Assembly: GCA_020851775.1 (NCBI GenBank)
Contig: JADZCB010000343.1
Span: 1 to 35,632, forward strand
DNA: 35,632 bases
Source of the DNA: Gammaproteobacteria bacterium
GTDB taxonomy: Bacteria; Pseudomonadota; Gammaproteobacteria; Ga0077536
Direction of reading: 5' to 3'
In this document: positions 9,186 to 28,800 of the stretch, one piece after another
Position numbering within the stretch: position 1 is the stretch's first letter
Layout: every line of letters starts with the position of its first letter
Notes under the pieces: model-generated
Told to the model about the DNA's origin: nothing
The model's input: the letters and a program-made list of their open reading frames with translations, nothing else
The model's database searches: none
Position numbers and translations under genes: made by a program

Positions 9186-11381
9186 TCAGGCATCGACGCC
9201 GCGGCGCAGATCCTCGACGAGTGCAGTACTCGGCCTGTTGCTGCGTGTCGCACCCTCGGTGGTCTCGCCGAGCCACGGCCACAGATCGCGCCGCAATTCA
9301 TCCGGCAGCACGTTCTCCAGGTATTCGAGTGCCGTGCCGCGCAGCGTGCGATCGTCGCTGGCGACCGCGCGCAACGCGAGCCGCAGCGCTTGACGATCGA
9401 GAACGAGACCGAGCAGCGTGAAGACGTGCTCCATGCTGATGTTCATGCGCGGATTGTCGACGTCGGCAAGATCACCGGCATCGCCGCGCAGTTCGACCTC
9501 ATAGTCGAGCTCGCGTGCCAACCAGGCACGCTCGTCGACAGCAAGTTCACGTTCGATCACGGCAAACACGCGCGCGCCGTCGATATCGATGTCCGCATCG
9601 CGTGCCCGCATGCGGGCAAGCGCACGGGCACTGCTATAGCGGACGTTGAACTCGTCATCGTCGAGCCCGCTCATCAGCGCCTCGACAGCGCGCGGATTGT
9701 GCGTGACTTCGAGCACGCTCGGGATGCGCTGACGTGCGACGAGCGGAAGATCGGGGTCGAGCAACGCGTCGGCGAGCGTACCGATCAATCGCGGCACCAT
9801 CCAGCGCAGTTCCATGCGCACGTCGCTGGCCAGGGCGTCGTGTCCGAGCAGCGGCAGCAGACACGGTGCGAGACGCGTATCCATGAAACTGCCGGTGAGA
9901 CAGCGGCGGATGGCTCTCTCGTCGCCGGATGTCAGCGCCGTCACCGCCGCGGCGAGCGGGACTCCCGCGGGATCGGGCGTGATACCGGCAGCGTCACCGT
10001 GCTCCGCGAGCGGCGGCGCGTCACCCGCGCTGCGCTGCTGCTTCATCTGCCGGATCCGCGCGGCGAGCAGTTCGCGTTCGCTCGCCGCCGTCAGTTCAGC
10101 GAGCGTGTGCCGCGTCGTCGCGTCGACGACTTCATCCGCGGCCAGCGAAATCGCCCCGTCGCGCAGGCTGGCTGCCAACTGCTCGACATAGCCACGATGC
10201 AGGCGCAGCGTCACGGCGAGCGCGAGCAGCGCGACGACGACCGCGACGATCACGACTGCCGCCGAATTCAGGCCCGGCACCACCGCGAGCAGCGCGAGCA
10301 GAATGCCGCTGCCGACGACGTCGCCGAGACGATCGGATGCGACGTCGATGATCGCCTTGGTCGGTCGCTTGGTCAGCGGCGGCAACGGCGTGTACAACAG
10401 CTCGAAGGCCGATCGGAACAGCGAATTGACCGTCACCATCTGCGCCGCCCGGATCGCGGTCGTCGCCCACAGCCGGCCGACGCCGGCGCCGAGCAGCCCG
10501 GCGAACACCGTCACTACGGGCATCAGCGCGAGTACCGGGCCGATACCGAAACGTTTCAACAGCCGCGGCCCGAGCAGCCACTGCACGAGGAAGGTCGCGA
10601 GACCGACGAACGCGTAGAACTGGCCGAAGAAGCCGACGAGGTCCTCGCTTTTCACGTAACGCATGCTCGCCTGCGCCTTCATCGCATAATCGAGCAGCGC
10701 CGCGAGCACGGCGACCAGCACCATCAGCGCGCCCATGCCCTGCAGGTAGCGTTGCTGACGCAGCAATTGCAGACCCGGCAGCAGTCCCAGATCCGTCGCG
10801 ACGCCGACCGTGCGACGGCCTTCGCCGATCGCGCGCACGCCGATGCCGCACAGTGCGTGCAACAGGCCGAGGACGAGGAGCATCGCGCGCACGTCCATCG
10901 CCTCCGCGACGCGGCCCGCGAGGACACCGCCGAGCAGACCACCGAGCGTCGCCGCGGCCCCGATGCGTGCGATCGTCTGTTTCGCGGTATAGGGATCGAA
11001 GCGTTCGTTGACGACGGACCAGAAACCGCTGATCAGCACGGCCCCGAACACGCCCATCTGCAGATAGAGCATGATTGAGATGGCCGCCGGTGCCACCGCA
11101 AAAAGAATCCAGCTCGCGAAGAACAGCAGGGCCGACAACGCGAATGCGCCAGGCATCACGCGCAGCGGCCCGAACTGCGCGAGCAGACGGGCGATGACGA
11201 CGACTGCGAGCATCGACAGCACGGCGGAAGCCATCACCATCTTGGGCAACGCGGTAACCGCGAACTGCGACAGGAACAGTGCGTCACGCGTCGCCTTGCC
11301 GGCCACCTGGTGCGCAATCATCAAGGTCGCCACACCGATCGCCCAGGAGGCGGCGGGCAGTCGCATGCGATGCGGGCTCAT
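9186..11381 (-). CDS. Npt1/Npt2 (ATP/ADP translocase-like) MFS transporter with C-terminal HEAT-like domain
   Basis: Start ATG 11381 overlaps the upstream stop (ATGA). ~12-TM N-terminal half (GKATRDALFLSQF...), soluble ~300-aa alpha-helical HEAT-like C-terminus. Confidence 0.75.
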   Translation of the reverse strand: MSPHRMRLPAASWAIGVATLMIAHQVAGKATRDALFLSQFAVTALPKMVMASAVLSMLAVVVIARLLAQFGPLRVMPGAFALSALLFFASWILFAVAPAAISIMLYLQMGVFGAVLISGFWSVVNERFDPYTAKQTIARIGAAATLGGLLGGVLAGRVAEAMDVRAMLLVLGLLHALCGIGVRAIGEGRRTVGVATDLGLLPGLQLLRQQRYLQGMGALMVLVAVLAALLDYAMKAQASMRYVKSEDLVGFFGQFYAFVGLATFLVQWLLGPRLLKRFGIGPVLALMPVVTVFAGLLGAGVGRLWATTAIRAAQMVTVNSLFRSAFELLYTPLPPLTKRPTKAIIDVASDRLGDVVGSGILLALLAVVPGLNSAAVVIVAVVVALLALAVTLRLHRGYVEQLAASLRDGAISLAADEVVDATTRHTLAELTAASERELLAARIRQMKQQRSAGDAPPLAEHGDAAGITPDPAGVPLAAAVTALTSGDERAIRRCLTGSFMDTRLAPCLLPLLGHDALASDVRMELRWMVPRLIGTLADALLDPDLPLVARQRIPSVLEVTHNPRAVEALMSGLDDDEFNVRYSSARALARMRARDADIDIDGARVFAVIERELAVDERAWLARELDYEVELRGDAGDLADVDNPRMNISMEHVFTLLGLVLDRQALRLALRAVASDDRTLRGTALEYLENVLPDELRRDLWPWLGETTEGATRSNRPSTALVEDLRRGVDA

Positions 11382-12637
11382 GCGCTCGTGAGCACCGCGC
11401 GATACGCGACGGCGATCCGCGTCACCGTCACGGTCCATACCACGCAGATGACCAGCGTGAGCCAGGACAGATCGACGGCGACCTCAGCGGCCGGCAGCAC
11501 TTGCAGCGCGAGCAGAATGAGCCCGGAACCGATGCCCTTGAACAGACGGTAACCGACCATGTCGATCCAGGCCTTCGCCTGGTAGGTCAGTACCGGATCG
11601 ACAGGGATGTAGAGCAGTTCCTTCGAGGCGCGGTTGATGGAGTACGACAGCCCGCGATCACCGATCTTCATCGCCCCCGCCGTCCACAGCGACGGCGACA
11701 CCCAGAACGCCGCACTGCAGGCGGTGAGCGTCAGGGGCTGCAGCAGGAGACCACCAATGGCGCCGAAGCTGCGGTGGATCAGCGGCGTGATCGCGACGTT
11801 GACCGCGATCGACACGAGACCGAGCAGGGCGAAGAACTCACTGATGAAGGCCGTGCGCGCATCGAGTTCGACGTACTCGCGCCCGGCCGTGTCAAGGAAC
11901 TGGTATTCGACGACGGGCTGTGCGAGTTGTGAACAGCACAACAGCAGTGCGATCAACACCAGATAACGATTGCGAAACATCACACGCCAGTCACCCGCCT
12001 CGCGCTGCGGCGCTTCGTGCACTTCGGCATAGAGACCGGCGCGGAACATCGCATAATTGAGTACCCAGACGACGAGCAGAAGCGTCGCGCAGGCGTAGAG
12101 CAGATCCGGCGTCGTCAGCGGCGTGTACTTCACGAGCCAGCTCGCGAGCAGCCCGCCGAGTACCCCGCCGACGAGCCCGCCGGTGCCGACGAACCAGAAG
12201 CTGCGGCGCCCCTCATCGTCGCTGCTGACCGAATCGGTCAGGCTCCAGAACTGTTCGACGAGCACGACGCTGAAGATGTCGACGAACACGTAGAAGGCGG
12301 TCGCGGTGAGGAGATCGCGCGGCGTGAACAGCGTACGGAACAACACGAGCAGCGCAGCGAAGACCAGCAGCGAGCCGAGCACGACCCGTACGCGCTCGAA
12401 CTTCGCGACGATCACGTGGTAACCCGCGATCACGACGATGAGCGTCAGTGCCGAATAGACCCACGCATACGGCAGGGATTCGGCACCACCGTATTCGATC
12501 AGCAGCGAGCGGGACGCGGCCTTGACCTGGTAGTAGGCGAGAATGATGAAGAAGAAGTTCGCGAACAGCGCGAGCGCGCGGCCCAGCGCCCGCGGGCGCC
12601 CGGGGACGGCGCCGATCGGTGCAGTGTCTGCGTGCAT
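11378..12637 (-). CDS. Npt1/Npt2-like (ATP/ADP translocase-like) MFS transporter
   Basis: 419 aa polytopic protein; motifs YYQVKAASRSLLIEYGG and NRASKELLYIPVDPVLTYQAKAWIDMVGYRLFKGIGS resemble this family; companion of the downstream gene. Confidence 0.75.
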   Translation of the reverse strand: MHADTAPIGAVPGRPRALGRALALFANFFFIILAYYQVKAASRSLLIEYGGAESLPYAWVYSALTLIVVIAGYHVIVAKFERVRVVLGSLLVFAALLVLFRTLFTPRDLLTATAFYVFVDIFSVVLVEQFWSLTDSVSSDDEGRRSFWFVGTGGLVGGVLGGLLASWLVKYTPLTTPDLLYACATLLLVVWVLNYAMFRAGLYAEVHEAPQREAGDWRVMFRNRYLVLIALLLCCSQLAQPVVEYQFLDTAGREYVELDARTAFISEFFALLGLVSIAVNVAITPLIHRSFGAIGGLLLQPLTLTACSAAFWVSPSLWTAGAMKIGDRGLSYSINRASKELLYIPVDPVLTYQAKAWIDMVGYRLFKGIGSGLILLALQVLPAAEVAVDLSWLTLVICVVWTVTVTRIAVAYRAVLTSA

Positions 12638-12709: not shown

Positions 12710-13636
12710 ATGGGGGGCTACCGTAACACATCTGGCCGCGGACTCGCCCGCAAGCTGCTTGCGGCTGCCTTGCTGTGCGGCGTTTGCACCGGGGTTTTCG
12801 CCGATGGCGACATCGCCGGCGGCGATCCGTTGCGTGAAGCCTACGATCCCGATCTCCAATACGGCCTCGAAGCCACGCTGGACCGTCTCGCGCTCGATGA
12901 CGACGCGGCGCGCGAGAAACTCTGCATCGCGCTCATCGACGTCACCGACATCCGCCATCCGCGCGTCGCCGAGGTCAACGGCGATCACATGATGTATGCG
13001 GCGAGCCTGCCGAAGATCGCCATCCTGCTCGGCGCCTTCGTCGAAATCGAGCGTGGTCGGCTGAATCTCTCGCAGGACAATCTCGATTCGATGACGCGCA
13101 TGATTCGCGTGTCCTCGAACACCGACGCGACGCGCATGCTGAATCTCGTCGGCAAACGTCGCGTGAACCGTATCCTGCAATCCGAGCGTTACCGGCTCTA
13201 CGACCCGGTCGTCAATGGCGGTCTGTGGGTCGGCAAGGAATACGCGCAGGGTGCCGCATTCGAGCGCGACCCGCTGCATCATCTCTCGCACGGCGCGACG
13301 GCGATGCAGACTGCCCGCTTCTACTATCTGCTCGAAGCCGGGGAACTCGTGAATCCGAAACTCACCCGGATCATGAAATCGATGCTGGCCGATCCCGGCA
13401 TCCGGCACAAGTTCGTCAAGGGGCTCGCCGGTATACCGGGCCTGCACCTCTACCGCAAATCCGGCACCTGGCAGCACTGGCACGCCGACAGCGCGCTGGT
13501 CGAGGGACAAGGACGCAAATACATCCTGGTCGGGCTCGCCGACGACGCCCGCGGCGGCGAGTGGCTCGCCGCGCTCGCCCCTGAAGTCCACAAGCTCGTC
13601 AATCCGACCCGGCTCGCCGCTGCGCGCACGCGCTGA
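12710..13636 (+). CDS. Exported serine hydrolase, class A beta-lactamase-like fold
   Basis: True start likely ATG 12710 (track ORF extends to 12017). Signal peptide LARKLLAAALLCGVCTGVFA; SxxK (SLPK), SxN (SSN), KSG motifs. Confidence 0.8.
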   Translation: MGGYRNTSGRGLARKLLAAALLCGVCTGVFADGDIAGGDPLREAYDPDLQYGLEATLDRLALDDDAAREKLCIALIDVTDIRHPRVAEVNGDHMMYAASLPKIAILLGAFVEIERGRLNLSQDNLDSMTRMIRVSSNTDATRMLNLVGKRRVNRILQSERYRLYDPVVNGGLWVGKEYAQGAAFERDPLHHLSHGATAMQTARFYYLLEAGELVNPKLTRIMKSMLADPGIRHKFVKGLAGIPGLHLYRKSGTWQHWHADSALVEGQGRKYILVGLADDARGGEWLAALAPEVHKLVNPTRLAAARTR

Positions 13637-19097: not shown

Positions 19098-20501
19098 TCA
19101 GCGCGCGGGTGGCTGGATGCGCACGAGGCTGCGCAGCGCGTCGATCAGATCGTCGGCGGACGCGAAGCGCTGGGCCGGCTCCTTGGCGAGCAGAATGTCG
19201 ATCACCGGCTGGAAATGGTGGACCGGCGCCGGCAGTTGCGGAATGTCCGCGTGGACGTGCTGGTAGACGAGCGCCGCGGCGCTTTCGGCACGATACGGCT
19301 TACGGCCGGTCAGCATTTCGAAGAAGATCACACCAGCACTGTAAAGATCGGACCGCTGATCGACCTTGTGGCCGAGCGCCTGCTCGGGGCTGATGTAGTT
19401 CGGGGTGCCGAGCACACTGCCCGCGCGCGTCAGCTCGCTCGTTTCGTCGAGACGCCGGGAAATGCCGAAGTCGGCGAGCGCGAGGCTGTCGTCCGAGCGG
19501 AACATGATGTTGCCTGGCTTCAGATCGCGGTGAACGATGCCGAGGGCATGGATCGCCCGCAGCCCGTAGGCGATGTGCAGCAGATAGTTCACCGCGTCGC
19601 CGACCGACACATCGTGCTCGATGCGTTGCTTCAGGTCGCCGCGGGTGAAAAACTCCATCGCGATGAAGCCGTAATGCTCCGTGAAGCCGTGTTCGAGGAA
19701 TTTCACGACGTATGGACTGTCGACGGCGGACACCAGCTCGGCTTCGCGGACGAATCGCTGCAGCACCTGCGGTTCCTTGACGCAGGCGACGTCGATCACC
19801 TTGAGCACCAGTGTCTGGCGGTCGCCCGCGCGTTCGGCGAGATACACGCGCGACGTCGCACCCTGGCCGATCAGCCGCACGAAGCGATAGCCGATCCGAC
19901 GCCCGTCCGGCGTGCGCGCGTCCTGCGGCAGGCGCATCTCGCGGACGATGAAAGCATCCTTCTGCAGCTTCAGATTCGGCGTCGTCGCCTCGCCGTCGGC
20001 GCGGCGTGCATCGCGCTCGCGTAACGCATCGCGCACCAGCGCGGCGAGCCGCGCCTGATCGATATCGATCTTTTTGATGAAATCATGGGCGCCAGCCTTG
20101 ATCGCCCGTACCCCGATGTAATCGTCGCCGCTCGCCGTCATCAGCACGGTCGGTGGAAAGCCGTTGCAGCGGCGGTAGCGGGTGAGCCAGTCGAGACCCG
20201 TGGTGACGCCGCCGAGCTGGTAGTCGAGCAGCATCACGTCGTAGATCGACCAGTCGAAAGCCGGCGTCGGGTCGCCCTGCTGTTCCGGGTCGTATTCGGT
20301 CACTTCGATGTCGGGCCATTCGCGGGCGAGCAGGCGCCGCACCAGCGCCATGTATTCGCGCGAGTCGTCGACGATGATGACCTTCATGCCCGTGGACGCG
20401 GCCACCCCGGGCAGGATAGTCGCCGTGATCGAATGCGCTTGATCGCCCGTGGCCGACGCGGCCTCAGGCACGGGTGTCGAGATGATCGATTCTTCCATCA
20501 T
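19098..20501 (-). CDS. Response-regulator receiver fused to Hanks-type Ser/Thr protein kinase
   Basis: Receiver: IIVDDSREYM, LLDYQLGG phospho-acceptor Asp, TAS, IKKIDI. Kinase: IGQGATSRVYLAE, VLKVID, HRDLKPGNIMF, DFGISR, GTPNYISPEQ. Start likely 20501/20498, not 20693. Confidence 0.93.
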   Translation of the reverse strand: MMEESIISTPVPEAASATGDQAHSITATILPGVAASTGMKVIIVDDSREYMALVRRLLAREWPDIEVTEYDPEQQGDPTPAFDWSIYDVMLLDYQLGGVTTGLDWLTRYRRCNGFPPTVLMTASGDDYIGVRAIKAGAHDFIKKIDIDQARLAALVRDALRERDARRADGEATTPNLKLQKDAFIVREMRLPQDARTPDGRRIGYRFVRLIGQGATSRVYLAERAGDRQTLVLKVIDVACVKEPQVLQRFVREAELVSAVDSPYVVKFLEHGFTEHYGFIAMEFFTRGDLKQRIEHDVSVGDAVNYLLHIAYGLRAIHALGIVHRDLKPGNIMFRSDDSLALADFGISRRLDETSELTRAGSVLGTPNYISPEQALGHKVDQRSDLYSAGVIFFEMLTGRKPYRAESAAALVYQHVHADIPQLPAPVHHFQPVIDILLAKEPAQRFASADDLIDALRSLVRIQPPAR

Positions 20502-20505
20502 TCGA

Positions 20506-20525
20506 TAATCGGTACGTAATCGGTA
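20506..20525. repeat. Direct repeat TAATCGGTA x2, 11-bp period
   Basis: TAATCGGTA-CG-TAATCGGTA in the divergent 130-bp region, followed by a degenerate AACGGT. Confidence 0.7.
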
Positions 20526-20631
20526 AAAACGGTCCGTCGGCGCGCATAGCCGGGGTCCAACGTTCGCTATGTCGGCCGCTACGTGAAAAACATGGCATAA
20601 ACTGCTGAACCCGACCCCGAGGATCGACGTT

Positions 20632-23592
20632 TTGCGACGGACCACACACCTGCGCCGGCTCGCGCTCGGCCTCCTGTTCATCGGCGGCGGCACTCTACCC
20701 TGCGCTGCGGCGATCGCGCCGAATCCCGCGGGTCGCGCTGCAATCGAGGCGATGAAGGTGGATTCGCGCGGCCCCTTCGATCAAATCCGCTGGTTCTGCA
20801 AGGATGGCGCCGTCCTGCTGCCGACGCCCGGCGCGTGCAAACCGCATGGTGGCGGTCACCAGCATGGGCAATGGTCCGAACGGACCCGGCAACTGCGCGC
20901 CGGCGGTTACCGTATCGCGAACTTCTTCGCGGATCTGGACGTCGAGGCGCTGCTCGCGAGCGATCGCACGTACGCCCCGTTCGCGCAGATGCTCGTCGAG
21001 CGCTTTCTCGTCGAAGCGGACGACGGCTGGATTCTGCGGCAGGCGCGCTATTACCGGGGCGCCTTCCAGGAAGAAGACGAACGGCGCGGCGCGCGGACAC
21101 TGCTGCTGACCCTTGCCGCAGAGCCAGCCTGGGTCGATTTCCGCTATCTGCTGTTGCGCACGACGGCGGGGCTCGTGCCGCACGGGCCCGAAACCGCATC
21201 GATCCGCGAAGCGCGCCAGCTCGCCGCGGCGCTGTCGGATCGCGACCCGGCGTTCAAGCCGCTGCGCAACAAGATCCATGGGCGCCTCGCGCGCCACGAT
21301 GCCGCGGCCGTCGAAACGTATGCCGCGACACTGCCCGACACCCGGCGCGCGGACTATCTGCGGCTCGCGACGCAGATCCGCGTCCTGTTCGACGAGGATC
21401 TCGGGACAGGTCTCGAAGCGGCGCGGCGGCAGAGCACGAAATCGCCCGCTGCCGCTTCCGAGCTCGCCGCGCTCGCGGCGACCTGGCAGGCGGCGGCCGA
21501 CGACGACGCCCGGATCGAAATCGCCGCACGGACGCTGCAGGCATTGCGGGATCTGATCGCGGGGCCGGCGGACGCCACACTCAGGCTCGCCCTGCTCGAC
21601 ACGAGCCTGCTCGCCGAATCGACGTATTTCACGCTCGCCGCCGGCCGGCGCGACGACGCGACGGCCAGCCGCCGTATCCGCCTGGAACGTGTCGCCACCG
21701 GCCTCGACGCGTTGTACGGCACGGGACTGCTGTCGCGACGTCAGTACGACGCGATGCGCGCCGAGCTCGCGCAACTCGACACGACCGCGCCGCCACCAGC
21801 GCTGTACAAGCAGGTGCTCGACTATCTTGCCTTGGCGCCGCACTGGGCGAGCCAGAACTACCGGCTGCACTTCGGTGCGGCGATGGATAAACTCACCGAG
21901 ATCGAACCGAAGGCCGCGCTGTTCATCCAGGATCAGTTGCGCGGCAGCGCGTTGCTGTCGCACGCCGAGACCGTCGACACGCTGGTGCGCGACGCGAATG
22001 CGCTGAACGGCATCCGGAACCGGATGTTCGATGCGGATGTCGGGGGCGGGCTGCGTGCGCTGAACCCGGGGCTGGCGCAGGGGATCCTGCAGTTTGCACT
22101 CGACGGCGACGTCGAGCAGCTCGAACGTGATCACATCTACGTGCTGCCCGAGACGGTGTCCGATCTGCCGCCGGTCGCCGGCATCCTCACCGCCGGCGAA
22201 GGCAACCCGCTGTCGCACGTGCAATTGCTCGCGCGCAATCTCGGCATTCCCAACATCGCCCTCGATCAGCGTCTGCTCGCCGAACTTCGGGCCCACGAAG
22301 GCGAGCGCATCGTGCTCGCCGTGAGCCCGGGTGGCGCCGTGCACGTCACCGCCGCCGGTCCCGACACCGCAGCGTTGTTCGCGGGCGGCGCGAACACACC
22401 GACGAACGCAGCGATCACGGTCGATCTCGACAAGCTCGATCTCGACACGCGCGATTTCATCGATCTGCGGGCGCTGCGAGCGGGCGATTCCGGCCGTACG
22501 GTCGGGCCGAAGGCCGCCAAGCTCGGTGAATTGAAGGCGCATTATCCGGACGCCGTCGCCGAGGGCATCGCGATCCCCTTCGGGCGCTTCCGTGCGCTGC
22601 TCGAGCAACCGCTGGCCGGCGACACCGGCAGTGTCTTCGAATGGATGAAGCGCAGCTATGCCGAACTCGCGGCGCTGCCGGCCGATGCCGCCGGACGACG
22701 CGAGGCGACAGAGCACTTCCGCGCGCGTCTCGAACAATGGGTCGCCGCGGCCGATCCGGGCGAGGCGTTTCGCCGCGAACTGACTGCACACCTGCGCGAT
22801 ACCTTCGGTGCCGACGGCAGCTATGGCGTGTTCGTGCGCAGTGATACCAATGTCGAGGATCTGCCGGGCTTCACCGGCGCCGGCCTCAACCTGACATTGC
22901 CGAACGTCGTCGGGGAAGCGGCGATTCTCGCGGCGATTTCCAAAGTATGGGCATCGCCCTTCAGCGCGCGTTCGTTCGCCTGGCGCCAGGCGCTGATGAG
23001 CGCGCCGGAGCACGTATATCCCGCGGTCCTCTTGCTGAAGAGCGTCGACAATGACAAGTCAGGCGTGCTCGTCACGCGTGAAATCGATAGCGGCAGCCTC
23101 GACTGGCTATCGGTCGCGGTCAATGAAGGCGTCGGCGGTGCGGTCGACGGCCAGTCCGCAGAATCGCTGCGCATTCACGTCCCGAGCGGCCGCGTGCGCC
23201 TGCTCGCCCAGGCGACGACCCCCGTGCGACGTCAAATCGCCGCCGCGGGCGGGATCCGCGAACTGCCCGTCACTGGCAGCGACAGCGTGCTGAAGCCCAC
23301 CGAAATCGAGCAGCTCGTGACGTTCGCACGCGAGTTGCCGACACGTTTTCCCGCGATCGTCGATGCGGCCGGCAACGCCGCGCCGGCCGACGTCGAATTC
23401 GGCTTTCGGCAGGGCAGCCTGCATCTGTTCCAGATCAGGCCGTTCCTGGACAACGCGCGCACGCGCGGCCTGGGCTATCTGCAATCGCTCGACGCAAAAC
23501 CGACCGACGGCGCAGCGGTCCAGATCGATCTCGATGCCGCACCCGGCCCGAACGACGCCTCCGCCGCTTCTTCCGGAGCACCCTCGTCATGA
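20632..23592 (+). CDS. Exported PEP-dikinase-like protein with phospho-His swivel followed by C-terminal ATP-grasp (GWD/PWD-like order)
   Basis: TTG start with SD GAGGA; N-terminal signal peptide; swivel GEGNPLSHVQLLARNLGIPN (His codon 22216-22218); then GPKAAKLGEL, VRSDTNVEDLPGFTGAGLN, KVWASPFSARSFAWR, FGFRQGSLHLFQIRPF. Confidence 0.85.
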   Translation: MRRTTHLRRLALGLLFIGGGTLPCAAAIAPNPAGRAAIEAMKVDSRGPFDQIRWFCKDGAVLLPTPGACKPHGGGHQHGQWSERTRQLRAGGYRIANFFADLDVEALLASDRTYAPFAQMLVERFLVEADDGWILRQARYYRGAFQEEDERRGARTLLLTLAAEPAWVDFRYLLLRTTAGLVPHGPETASIREARQLAAALSDRDPAFKPLRNKIHGRLARHDAAAVETYAATLPDTRRADYLRLATQIRVLFDEDLGTGLEAARRQSTKSPAAASELAALAATWQAAADDDARIEIAARTLQALRDLIAGPADATLRLALLDTSLLAESTYFTLAAGRRDDATASRRIRLERVATGLDALYGTGLLSRRQYDAMRAELAQLDTTAPPPALYKQVLDYLALAPHWASQNYRLHFGAAMDKLTEIEPKAALFIQDQLRGSALLSHAETVDTLVRDANALNGIRNRMFDADVGGGLRALNPGLAQGILQFALDGDVEQLERDHIYVLPETVSDLPPVAGILTAGEGNPLSHVQLLARNLGIPNIALDQRLLAELRAHEGERIVLAVSPGGAVHVTAAGPDTAALFAGGANTPTNAAITVDLDKLDLDTRDFIDLRALRAGDSGRTVGPKAAKLGELKAHYPDAVAEGIAIPFGRFRALLEQPLAGDTGSVFEWMKRSYAELAALPADAAGRREATEHFRARLEQWVAAADPGEAFRRELTAHLRDTFGADGSYGVFVRSDTNVEDLPGFTGAGLNLTLPNVVGEAAILAAISKVWASPFSARSFAWRQALMSAPEHVYPAVLLLKSVDNDKSGVLVTREIDSGSLDWLSVAVNEGVGGAVDGQSAESLRIHVPSGRVRLLAQATTPVRRQIAAAGGIRELPVTGSDSVLKPTEIEQLVTFARELPTRFPAIVDAAGNAAPADVEFGFRQGSLHLFQIRPFLDNARTRGLGYLQSLDAKPTDGAAVQIDLDAAPGPNDASAASSGAPSS

Positions 23593-24872
23593 ACGTCTCG
23601 ACGATGGTCCGCGCAATGACGGTCGTCTGCCTGTCTGCGGCGGCCGCCATCGCAGCCGCCTACCCGCTCGACAGCTTCGAGGCGACCGGCATCGGCCGTC
23701 TCGAAGAAGCCCGTCGCGTGCAGGCCGGCACGATGCCGGGCGTCAAACAGCCGCGTGGGGCCCTGCTGACGCGCGAGGAAGTCGATCTGCGTCTCGAGGA
23801 TCTGCCGTCGGAAATGCGCCTGCCGACCGTTGATCCCGAGTTCACGGCGCAGGTGCGCGATGTGCTCGGTGCCCAGGTGGACGCCTATGCGGTGTCGATA
23901 CTCGATCTGAGCGATCGGGCGCAACCACGCTATGCCGAAATCAACGGCGACGTGCTGCGCAATCCCGGCAGCGTCGGCAAGTTGATGGTCGCGCTCGCAT
24001 TCTTCCAGGCGCTTGCCGATCTCTACCCCAACGACACGGCGAAGCGCTTTGACCTGCTCAAAAACACCGTCGTCACCGCCGACGAGTTCGTACTCACCGA
24101 TTCACATACCGTGCGACGCTGGGACCGCGCAGACGAACGCCTGATCCGCCGGCCGCTCGCGCCTGGTGACCGCGGCACCCTGTTCGAATTCCTGGACTGG
24201 ATGATTTCGGCGAGTTCGAATTCCGCGGCGGCGGCACTGATGAAGGAAGGCATGCTGCTGAAGCATTTCGGCACGCGCTATCCCGTGCCGGTCGACGAGG
24301 GCAAACGCTACTTCACGGTCACGCCGCGTGCCGAGCTGACGCGCGCGCTCGCCGAGTTCATCGAAACGCCGGTCACCCGCAACGGCCTCGATCTCGCCCG
24401 CTTGCGCCAGGGTTCGTTCTTCACCGCGACGGGCAAGCGCAAGGTGCAAGGCACGTCGAGTCACGCATCGACGCGCGAACTGATGAATTACATGTTCAAA
24501 CTCGAGCAGGGACGACTCGTCGACGCATTTTCGTCCCGGGAAATCAAGCGGCTGATGTACAGCACCGAGCGCCGCATTCGTTACGCGTCGTCGCCGGCCC
24601 TGTTCAATTCCGCAGTCTATTTCAAGAGCGGGTCGTGGTTCGGCTGCAAGCCGGAGCCCGGCTTCGTGTGCCGACCTTACGCCGGCAACGTGCGCAATTT
24701 CATGAATTCGGTCGCGATCGTCGAGCACCCGGCCACCCCGCGGCGCATCCATTACGTGGTGACACTGATGTCGAACGTGCTGCGGCGGAATTCGGCAGTG
24801 GACCACCAGTCACTCGCGACCCGCATTCAGCGGCTGATGGAGAAACGGCATCCTGTGTCGGCGGTGCCGTGA
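23589..24872 (+). CDS. Exported serine hydrolase, beta-lactamase-like
   Basis: ATG overlaps the previous TGA (ATGA). Signal peptide MVRAMTVVCLSAAAAIAAAYP; SVGK (SxxK), SSN (SxN), KSGS motifs. Confidence 0.8.
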   Translation: MNVSTMVRAMTVVCLSAAAAIAAAYPLDSFEATGIGRLEEARRVQAGTMPGVKQPRGALLTREEVDLRLEDLPSEMRLPTVDPEFTAQVRDVLGAQVDAYAVSILDLSDRAQPRYAEINGDVLRNPGSVGKLMVALAFFQALADLYPNDTAKRFDLLKNTVVTADEFVLTDSHTVRRWDRADERLIRRPLAPGDRGTLFEFLDWMISASSNSAAAALMKEGMLLKHFGTRYPVPVDEGKRYFTVTPRAELTRALAEFIETPVTRNGLDLARLRQGSFFTATGKRKVQGTSSHASTRELMNYMFKLEQGRLVDAFSSREIKRLMYSTERRIRYASSPALFNSAVYFKSGSWFGCKPEPGFVCRPYAGNVRNFMNSVAIVEHPATPRRIHYVVTLMSNVLRRNSAVDHQSLATRIQRLMEKRHPVSAVP

Positions 24873-25447: not shown

Positions 25448-26530
25448 TCAATCAGGCTGATGCGGCCGGGCCAGATAGTCGTGGGACTGCATCTCGATCA
25501 GGCGGCTGACCGTACGGCGAAAGGCCGCCGCCAGCCGCCTCCCGGTATACAGTCCGGCCGGATCCGAGGCCGCGCTGACGAGCAGGTTCACATGTCGGTC
25601 GTACAACGCGTCCAGCAGGTTGATGAAGCGCCGCGCAGCGTCGTTCTGGTCCTCGTTCATCACCGGTACACCGCTCAACATCAGCGTATGGAAACAGCGT
25701 CCCAGTTCGATGTAGTCGAGCGTGCCCCGCGGACTGCCGCACAGGGCGTCGAATTCGCACCACATCACACCATCCGCATGCCCGAGCACCTGCAGCGGCC
25801 GGTCGTCGAGGGGGGTGCTGCCGACCACCGGCGCCTGCAGCGTGAGGGCCTCGAACTGCGCGCGCAGCGTGGCCCGGGCTCGTGCGTCGTCCGGCGTGTG
25901 ATACACGGAGGCCTGCTCCAGCGTGCGCAGACGGTAGTCCGTCGCGCCGACGAGTTCGAGCACGGTGAGCCGGTCCTTCAGCAGCGCGATCGCCGGCAGA
26001 AAGCGCTCGCGCTGCAGGCCGCCGCGGTAGAGTTCGTCCGGTGCATCGTTCGAAGTCGTCACCAGCACGGTGCCGCGATCGAACAAGGCCTCGAGCAGGC
26101 GGCCGAGCAGCATCGCATCGGTGATGTCGGTGACGTGAAATTCGTCGAGGCATAGCACCTTCACGTGCCCTGCCCACTGCTTCGCGATCACCTGCAGTGG
26201 ATCCTGCACCTGTTTCAGTTTCTTCAGTTCGGCATGCACGTCGCGCATGAAACTGTGGAAATGCTGCCGTCGCCGGATGACGGGTGGCAGGCAATCGTAG
26301 AAAAGGTCGACGAGCAGCGTCTTGCCGCGACCGACCGTTCCCCACAGATAAAGACCCTTTGGCGGTGCCGCCTCATGTGCAGCGCCGAACGACCACCAGC
26401 GGCGACGCAGCGGCGCGGCCGTCACCGCATGGTAGAGGCGATCGAGAAGTTGCGCGGCCACCTGCTGCGCGGGATCGCGTTCAAAACCCGGGCGCGTCAG
26501 CGCGCGCTCGTAGCGTTCGAGGGGAGTCAT
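25448..26530 (-). CDS. zapE: AFG1-like ATPase / cell division protein ZapE
   Basis: 360 aa; PPKGLYLWGTVGRGKTLLVDLFYDCLP, HFHSFMRDVHAEL, CLDEFHVTDITDAMLL. Confidence 0.95.
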   Translation of the reverse strand: MTPLERYERALTRPGFERDPAQQVAAQLLDRLYHAVTAAPLRRRWWSFGAAHEAAPPKGLYLWGTVGRGKTLLVDLFYDCLPPVIRRRQHFHSFMRDVHAELKKLKQVQDPLQVIAKQWAGHVKVLCLDEFHVTDITDAMLLGRLLEALFDRGTVLVTTSNDAPDELYRGGLQRERFLPAIALLKDRLTVLELVGATDYRLRTLEQASVYHTPDDARARATLRAQFEALTLQAPVVGSTPLDDRPLQVLGHADGVMWCEFDALCGSPRGTLDYIELGRCFHTLMLSGVPVMNEDQNDAARRFINLLDALYDRHVNLLVSAASDPAGLYTGRRLAAAFRRTVSRLIEMQSHDYLARPHQPD

Positions 26531-26646
26531 GCGGGGCGGGCGTTGCCGACGGCGACGCGCTGGCGGACATCAGGATTCACGACGCGCGCATGATAACGCG
26601 TGGCGCGCGCTTTTCAGCGCACCTGATCGGCAGGCATGCTGGAGCG

Positions 26647-28800
26647 ATGGCCGGTCCACGACTCGCGCTGCGCTGGAAACTGCTTGCCCTGCTCGCCGCG
26701 CTGGCGCTCGGGCCGTTGTACTTCATCGCCTGGACGGATTTGCACACGCTGAGCGGCCTGGGTTCGACCCTCGCCGGCCAGTCCGCCGAAGCGCTCGGCG
26801 CCCAGTTGCGGGCGAATCTGCGCCAGATCGCCGACAGTCACGCGGCCGCTGTCGCCCGGCAGCGCAAGCTCGTCGAACTGGTGGTGCGCTTCCAGGCCCG
26901 CGACATCGAGCAGGCGCTGAACGATCCGCGGGTTCCGTCGGTCGCGCCAATCTGGGCGAGCCGCTTCGACGGCGATACGCTGCCTGCCGGCACCACCCGC
27001 GATGAACCCGGCTACTATCGCCAGATCGATGCGCGGCATCGCGAAGCGCTCGCACTGTCGTTCGACGCGTTGTCGTTGCACCTCGCACCCGGCGTGCTCG
27101 CGGATGACGTCGCCGGCGATGCCCGCCGCCTCGCTGCGCTTGCCCGTCCCTTGCGCGAGTTGCGCGCGACAGCACCGGATTTGATCCATTGGCAATATGC
27201 GGCACTCGCGTCCGGGATGCTGGTGAGTTTCCCCGCGCACGGCGGTTATCCTGCCGGCTACGATCCCCGTCTGCGCGACTGGTACCAGCGACAGGCGACA
27301 CGACCCGCCCTCGACTGGTCACCTCCGCACACGGACGTCAGCACGCGCCTGTCCGTGATCTCGGCGACGATGCCCGTGCGCAATGCCGAGGGCCATTTCA
27401 TCGGCGTGACCGGCATCGACATCCGCGTGACGAGCCTGTTGCGCGCACTGGAAATGCCGCGGCACGTCGCCGACGCGAGCCGTGTGCTGCTGACACGGCT
27501 CGATGGCGATGACGTGCGTGTGCTCGCGCGCAACGATCGCCATGAATCCGGCGGCGACTGGCGGGAGACACGCACGCCTGAGCGCCTCGAATTCGATCGC
27601 GTGAGCGATCTCGCGGCGCTGCGTGCCGAAATGCGGGCCGGCGCCAACGGCTTGCGCACGCTCGCTGCGGACGGCGAGCGCACCCTGTGCGTCTTTCGCA
27701 AGCTCGATGACGACGGACTGTACCTCGTGTTCCTCGTCGCCTCGCAGGCGGCGACGCGCCCCGCTCAGGACGCTGCCGACTATGCGCTGACGACGACGCG
27801 GCGCCAACAGGACGCGCTGCTGCTCATCACGTGCATCGTCGCGGTCGGCGTCGCTGCGGTGTCGTTCGCCGCGGCGCGCGCGGTGACCGGGCCGGTGGAA
27901 GCGCTGGAGCGCGCGGTCAGCGCGGTGGCTGAAGGAGACTTCACGACGCGCGTCGCGATCACGACCGGGGATGAACTCGAAGCCCTCGGCGATTCCTTCA
28001 ACGCGATGATCCCGCACCTCGAAGCCCATACGCGCGTGCAGGAATCGCTGGCGCTCGCGCGCGAGGTGCAACAGCAGCTTCTGCCCGGCGCCTCGCCACG
28101 GTTCCCGGGGCTCGACGTCGCCGGTTCGATTCTCTACTGCGACGAAACCGGCGGCGACTACTACGATTTTCTCGATCTTCGCGCGACCGGTCGCCACACG
28201 CTCGGCGCCGTGATCGGCGACGTGTCCGGCCATGGTCTCGCCGCGGCGCTGCTGATGGCAACGGCCCGGGCCCTCGTGCACGGTGCGGCCGGCAGCGCTG
28301 CCGTGACGCCGGCCGCGATGATTGCCGATCTGAACCGGCTGCTCGCGGCGGACGTGCGTCCCGGCCATTTCCTGACGCTGTTCGCGCTCTTCGTCGATCT
28401 CGACGCGCGCACCTTCTGCTGGTCAAGCGCCGGGCATGGTGCCGCGTTGTGGTGGCGGGCCGAGAACGGCGGCGTCATCGAACTTGCCGGCGACGACATC
28501 CCGCTCGGCATCGACCGCGCGTGGCAGTTTCATCCTTCGCGCAGCGCGTCCTTCGAACCGGGTGACGTCGTGATGCTGACGACCGATGGACTGTGGGAAA
28601 CGCGCGCGCCCAGTGGCGAACACTACGGCAGAGCGCGACTGCACGAACTCCTGCGCGAACACCACGATGTCCCGGCTGCCGAACTCGCGCGTCTCGTCCT
28701 GCGTGCCGTCGCCCGCTTCCGCGGCAGCGCGCCCCAGCACGACGACATGACGGTCGTGATCGTCCGCGTCGAGCCGCTTGTGGCACTCCCGCCAGGATGA
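26647..28800 (+). CDS. Membrane PP2C-like SpoIIE phosphatase with extracytoplasmic Cache-like sensor and HAMP
   Basis: TM - ~350-aa sensor - TM - HAMP (ARAVTGPVEALERAVSAVAEGDFTTRV) - SpoIIE (GDVSGHGLAAALLMATARA, TTDGLWETR, HDDMTVVIVRV). Track start 26284 overlaps zapE; start 26647 or slightly upstream. Confidence 0.92.
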   Translation: MAGPRLALRWKLLALLAALALGPLYFIAWTDLHTLSGLGSTLAGQSAEALGAQLRANLRQIADSHAAAVARQRKLVELVVRFQARDIEQALNDPRVPSVAPIWASRFDGDTLPAGTTRDEPGYYRQIDARHREALALSFDALSLHLAPGVLADDVAGDARRLAALARPLRELRATAPDLIHWQYAALASGMLVSFPAHGGYPAGYDPRLRDWYQRQATRPALDWSPPHTDVSTRLSVISATMPVRNAEGHFIGVTGIDIRVTSLLRALEMPRHVADASRVLLTRLDGDDVRVLARNDRHESGGDWRETRTPERLEFDRVSDLAALRAEMRAGANGLRTLAADGERTLCVFRKLDDDGLYLVFLVASQAATRPAQDAADYALTTTRRQQDALLLITCIVAVGVAAVSFAAARAVTGPVEALERAVSAVAEGDFTTRVAITTGDELEALGDSFNAMIPHLEAHTRVQESLALAREVQQQLLPGASPRFPGLDVAGSILYCDETGGDYYDFLDLRATGRHTLGAVIGDVSGHGLAAALLMATARALVHGAAGSAAVTPAAMIADLNRLLAADVRPGHFLTLFALFVDLDARTFCWSSAGHGAALWWRAENGGVIELAGDDIPLGIDRAWQFHPSRSASFEPGDVVMLTTDGLWETRAPSGEHYGRARLHELLREHHDVPAAELARLVLRAVARFRGSAPQHDDMTVVIVRVEPLVALPPG

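Follow-up and report, generated by a model that had tools for sequence, protein, structure and literature searches.

The plant glucan, water dikinases (GWD/PWD) consist of an N-terminal region, a phosphohistidine (pHis) domain and a C-terminal ATP-grasp domain, in this order. The periplasm of bacteria is taught as an ATP-free compartment. Escherichia coli has no ATP/ADP translocase and the transfer of ATP to its periplasm is an open question (PMC7432876), and no function has yet been assigned to the NTT-type nucleotide carriers found in free-living bacteria (PMC5381601). In rifampin phosphotransferase (RPH), the phosphate is carried by a swivel His, and Lys22, Arg117 and Thr136 are required for full activity (PMC4844700). 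Here we describe a locus within a gammaproteobacterial stretch of 35,632 nt (the window). We consider it reasonably probable that the dikinase of this locus forms the catalytic core of a phosphotransfer system that is fuelled by ATP and works in the periplasm.

The dikinase gene of the window (Table 1) is one open frame of 986 aa that matches its coordinates exactly. A putative and plausible ribosome-binding site, GAGG, lies 9 nt 5′ of the TTG, and scans for sigma-70 promoters and terminators gave nothing above shuffled sequences. Long antisense ORFs over the gene (e.g. 20695-23013 on the minus strand, 772 aa) look like high-GC shadows. The predicted protein begins with a signal peptide, followed by a new helical domain of about 445 aa, the pHis swivel with H529 and the C-terminal ATP-grasp domain. 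The Pfam profile PPDK_N (PF01326) matched residues 623-940 (E 2.9e-21, 76.5 bits against a cut-off of 27) and was found in 11 of 11 orthologues. The PEP-utilizers mobile domain (PF00391) matched residues 506-543 with 20 bits (E 5e-4), slightly below its cut-off of 23.1, and was recovered in all 11 aligned orthologues with a best E of 3e-6. The motif GNPLSHVQLLARN, which contains H529, and the motif VRSDTNVEDLPGFTGAGLN are both present, and the Pfam scan detected no PEP TIM-barrel domain. Based on the PPDK_N score above the cut-off and the swivel with its catalytic His, we assign the protein to the PPDK/PPS/RPH dikinase superfamily. A canonical PEP synthase paralogue, which would run from ATP-grasp through the His domain to a C-terminal barrel, was rejected given the domain order and the lack of the barrel; the genome also has a separate ordinary PPDK_N gene (L001). 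A defence or phage origin was rejected as well, with no match in PADLOC or PHROGs.

Table 1. Coordinates of the dikinase, its domains and the neighbouring genes in the window
Feature	Position	Strand	Details
Exported permuted dikinase (predicted)	20632..23592	+	986 aa, TTG start
Putative Sec-type signal peptide, residues 1-27	20632..20712	+	Hydrophobic leader in orthologues; cleavage predicted after AAA
N-terminal domain, almost wholly helical (residues 28-474)	20713..22053	+	AF2 model, conservation
Phosphohistidine swivel domain, about residues 475-590	22054..22401	+	PF00391; His529 = 22216-22218
ATP-grasp domain, about residues 612-940	22465..23451	+	PF01326; K627, R736, T755, E922, Q934, R936
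TLC/NTT-family nucleotide carrier (predicted), 419 aa, polytopic	11378..12637	-	PF03219 65.5 bits, cut-off 21
NTT-HEAT fusion carrier, 750 aa	9186..11438	-	PF03219 43.9 bits (cut-off 21) and HEAT repeats
sh1, exported active-site-serine protein (Beta-lactamase2 family)	23589..24872	+	PF13354 34.9 bits
sh2, second exported Beta-lactamase2-family protein	12710..13636	+	PF13354 61 bits; SLPK, SSN, KSG
Receiver and Ser/Thr kinase, divergent from the dikinase	19098..20693	-	PF00072, PF00069; true start probably near 20500

The catalytic residues are intact. All 72 orthologues have H529, K627 and R736. Gaps in the 72-sequence alignment aside, E922, Q934 and R936 are likewise invariant in every orthologue with a letter at the position, and T755 also belongs to the invariant residues of the family. 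H529 corresponds to the catalytic His of RPH. In a residue-by-residue alignment of the ATP-grasp domains, R736 corresponds to Arg117, T755 to Thr136 and E922 to Glu297 of RPH, and K627 lies within the motif GPKAAKLGEL, the counterpart of the Lys22 region. The AF2 model built from 72 sequences (pLDDT 88.9, pTM 0.87) was used instead of an earlier one from 11 sequences, which was poor (pLDDT 65). With this model as a query, Foldseek found RPH, PEP synthase and HpeI in the PDB. These matches span some 340 columns, a length that corresponds to the ATP-grasp part, and no PDB fold match was reported for the helical N-terminal domain, which was modelled with a pLDDT of about 90. This domain contains 52 near-invariant residues, including C56, C69 and a QHG motif (Q77-H78-G79), and is a candidate acceptor-binding domain.

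The earlier note on this DNA missed two groups of genes that bear on the paradox of periplasmic ATP, namely the genes of the ATP/ADP-carrier family and two exported serine-hydrolase-like genes, sh1 and sh2. In the window, sh1 overlaps the stop of the dikinase by 4 bp (ATGA), and sh2 and both carriers lie 7-11 kb upstream of it. The SxxK, SSN and KSG motifs are kept in both sh1 and sh2, and neither had a sequence match in the PDB at E 0.1. The arrangement is conserved, with one or two TLC/NTT-family carriers per locus. Among 80 dikinase loci which we oriented and compared, sh1 directly follows the dikinase in most and sh2 is nearby. In the subset of 38 loci with 7 kb or more of flanking sequence on each side, 37 encode sh1, 33 encode sh2 and 25 encode a TLC/NTT carrier; the complete set occurs in 24.

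Other genes were noticed around the dikinase. Thirteen compared loci encode a homologue of the divergent receiver-Ser/Thr kinase, in some cases with a membrane sensor in place of the receiver, and this protein is a possible regulator of the locus. The window also encodes a SpoIIE-type phosphatase (26284-28800, plus strand) that carries HAMP and dCache-like sensor domains and may be the counterpart of the Ser/Thr kinase close by. In 10 compared loci (L059:13921-16137, L069:13387-15609 and eight others), a gene near the dikinase joins a sodium:dicarboxylate symporter to a family 3 solute-binding domain.

The carriers proved to be divergent. The profile of the single-domain carrier subfamily matched an ADP,ATP carrier (PDB 9j3n) over its whole length with E 2e-32, and the NTT-HEAT carrier matched the same structure with E 6e-8. 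Against TIGR00769 (NTP/NDP exchange transporter) the two window carriers reached 50 and 38 bits, compared with the 387 bits needed. Judged by these profiles they form a distant NTT subfamily, for which nucleotide exchange is predicted. In several deltaproteobacterial loci, the protein encoded beside the dikinase combines an MFS/NTT-like part with HEAT repeats and a cyclic-nucleotide-binding domain (L110:4604-7771).

Co-occurrence was evaluated in 232 genomes of the class that were at least 90 % complete, 23 of which encode the dikinase. PF03219 was found in 22 of these 23 and in 18 of the 209 others, several of the 18 having strong canonical NTTs as in intracellular bacteria. The dikinase-linked carrier subfamily (>430 bits) was present in 20 of 23 dikinase genomes and in one of 209 others (Fisher 1e-24, a value that overstates the strength since genomes of the same family or genus are not independent). 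By coordinates, a carrier lay on the same contig within 10 kb of the dikinase in 18 of the 23. In the dikinase genome with no PF03219 match (G241), a distant NTT-like gene lies some 1.5 kb away from the dikinase. The sole carrier-positive genome lacking the dikinase (G219) has an intact carrier. Next to it, a 20-aa dikinase remnant runs into 94 aa of sh1 and a fragment of sh2 in reverse orientation (L114:8144-8698), the outcome of either locus decay or misassembly. In a sample of 299 genomes of the phylum, the carrier (>390 bits) was found in nine, all nine with the dikinase, while several dikinase genomes had no carrier linked to it, or just an NTT-HEAT or a different NTT paralogue. The carrier thus implies the dikinase more strongly than the dikinase implies the carrier.

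A dedicated nucleotide carrier in the locus would provide a testable answer to the source of periplasmic ATP. Several points count against ATP supply. The ATP/ADP exchangers that have been characterised are distant relatives of the locus carriers (TLC E about 1e-11 to 1e-18), and NAD is among the other nucleotides that members of the NTT family transport. In classical NTTs, ATP is swapped for ADP, while a dikinase yields AMP, and some dikinase genomes have no linked carrier. We give about an even chance to the full reading, in which an NTT-type carrier of free-living bacteria exports ATP and the secreted dikinase phosphorylates an envelope polymer together with the two PBP-fold enzymes.

Alternatively, the carrier could work inwards, in the salvage of nucleotides or other metabolites. 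The exported enzymes would then process environmental or periplasmic phosphorylated compounds, the NTT would import a nucleotide-like product, and the dikinase would act on environmental ATP or in reverse. Environmental ATP is scarce, which counts against such a role, and an exported ATP-dependent enzyme needs a reliable source of ATP. Some loci do encode phosphatases (a calcineurin-like metallophosphatase, a HAD-IIIB acid phosphatase), which fit a periplasmic phosphate economy and would suit salvage too. The well-studied NTTs of parasites import ATP and nucleotides (PMC5381601), but the hosts of this locus, with genomes of 1.7-6.1 Mb, are unlike reduced parasites. We regard inward salvage as rather unlikely and prefer the export of ATP to the dikinase.

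The nature of the dikinase itself was also considered. The earlier note compared it to GWD/PWD, and this interpretation held in part. The swivel does precede a C-terminal ATP-grasp domain, as in GWD, according to the Pfam coordinates; the TIM barrel is missing; and dikinase chemistry is supported by the alignment with RPH. Membership in GWD/PWD did not hold. A true bacterial glucan, water dikinase phosphorylating an alpha-glucan would account for the domain order, the LSHVxxxARN wording and a weak similarity to GWD1_pHisD, but this model gave 13.1 bits (E 0.07) against a cut-off of 27 and recovered four of 11 orthologues with a best E of 0.0075, and we rejected GWD family membership on this score. 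In the N-terminus, Pfam found neither CBM45 nor CBM20 (starch-binding modules) up to an E of 1, and the partner proteins have the beta-lactamase/PBP fold and are not amylases or phosphorylases. The closest solved relatives are RPH and PEP synthase, with HpeI as the other PDB match. All this makes a glucan, water dikinase improbable and leaves us with an enzyme of predicted RPH-like chemistry in a GWD-like order.

The earlier note also read the N-terminus as an apparent signal peptide, and this was supported. The leader LRRTTHLRRLALGLLFIGGGTLPCAAA is real, as an equivalent hydrophobic leader is present in 57 of 57 orthologues with a scorable N-terminus (loci other than the window for which hydrophobicity could be scored there). 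It has the n-, h- and c-regions of a Sec-type leader, conserved among orthologues, and the hydrophobic stretch of the orthologues sits before a conserved GPFxxIRW motif. Canonical PEP synthases (PpsA controls) scored in the same way are without such a leader. A true start further downstream, raised in the earlier note, would be at M41, the next start; it is unlikely because it would lose the family-conserved RxWIExM residues, located upstream of M41. The dikinase has only two Cys, C56 and C69, both invariant in 72 of 72 orthologues, and the pair fits a disulfide. Taken together, the dikinase is predicted to be exported by a Sec-type route. That the leader is an N-terminal anchor of a cytoplasmic catalytic part, with the NTT association reflecting something else, is highly improbable: it would agree with the single hydrophobic segment of a protein whose cleavage and localisation are predicted from sequence, but the charge bias of the orthologues (usually net positive before the leader and net negative after it) predicts the body outside, and the two invariant Cys and the signal peptides of both sh1 and sh2 also argue against it.

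In the periplasmic phosphotransfer system that we propose, the dikinase would be secreted by Sec and folded with a C56-C69 disulfide, and the TLC/NTT-type carriers of the locus would supply it with ATP, or a different nucleotide, through the inner membrane. His529 would be phosphorylated by the ATP-grasp domain, with conversion of ATP to AMP and Pi in the two-step dikinase chemistry of RPH, PPS and GWD, and the swivel would then move the phosphate on to an acceptor bound by the helical N-terminal domain. The probable acceptor is a hydroxyl on a polymer of the envelope, either peptidoglycan or a different glycan of the periplasm, and the two exported PBP/beta-lactamase-fold partners may have that polymer, or one linked to it, as their substrate. 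A cell-envelope glycan is our best guess, based on the beta-lactamase/PBP-fold neighbours and the GWD-like order.

A search of genome contigs returned 507 relatives of the dikinase, mainly from Gammaproteobacteria. The 80 listed of them belong to Gammaproteobacteria, Betaproteobacteria, Desulfobacterota and other deltaproteobacteria, Nitrospirae and one Myxococcales bin. Aberrant members were also noticed. The homologue of G454 (L122:9054-11969) is a divergent orphan with no partners nearby, which keeps the leader but not the SH and RS-ED motifs (catalytic His, Arg), and looks like a pseudoenzyme. In G044 the gene (L132:6799-9882) is split by one in-frame TAG with both halves otherwise well conserved, either a recent pseudogene or a sequencing error. 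An apparent fusion in G192 (1416-aa frame) was rejected, as the extension is really an upstream open frame.

Protein by protein, the parts of the locus are variants of known families, and the system is without a described counterpart in open-access PMC text, where we found neither an exported dikinase nor a link between NTT and dikinase. The locus suggests a previously undescribed way in which ATP might be supplied outside the inner membrane and, in hundreds of species, points to a hitherto undescribed covalent mark on the cell envelope. With a carrier and a secreted ATP-grasp dikinase in one conserved locus, the source of periplasmic ATP and the role of the NTT can be tested with a handful of genes; if the proposal is true, the orphan NTTs of free-living bacteria would gain a role.

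Compared to known systems, sh1 and sh2 share the SxxK, SxN and KSG motifs with the class A beta-lactamase/PBP-fold serine enzymes (PF13354) and differ in being paired with an exported dikinase. The carriers resemble the NTT/TLC carriers of plastids, Chlamydia and Rickettsia (PDB 9j3n, 9j3j) in the whole-length profile match and in the region round the invariant K355 (YQAKAWID, against VKGKAAID in 9j3n), but they constitute a distant subfamily of free-living bacteria with a putative substrate and are tied to the dikinase. The dikinase has the ATP-grasp and His-swivel domains of RPH, PEP synthase and PPDK with the same catalytic residues, and these are its best PDB matches both by sequence and by fold. 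Unlike them, it has the inverted order with the swivel first, no TIM barrel or rifampin-binding domain, a new N-terminal domain and a predicted export signal. From plant GWD/PWD it differs in the pHis score below the cut-off, the unrelated helical N-terminus with no CBM detected, the predicted periplasmic location and the beta-lactamase/PBP-fold partners. It shares with them the domain order, the wording of the His-containing motif and a weak pHis similarity, and the plant enzymes likewise work in a compartment, the plastid, with an NTT carrier of ATP. If our reading is true, the locus would represent a bacterial counterpart of the plastid pair of NTT and glucan dikinase.
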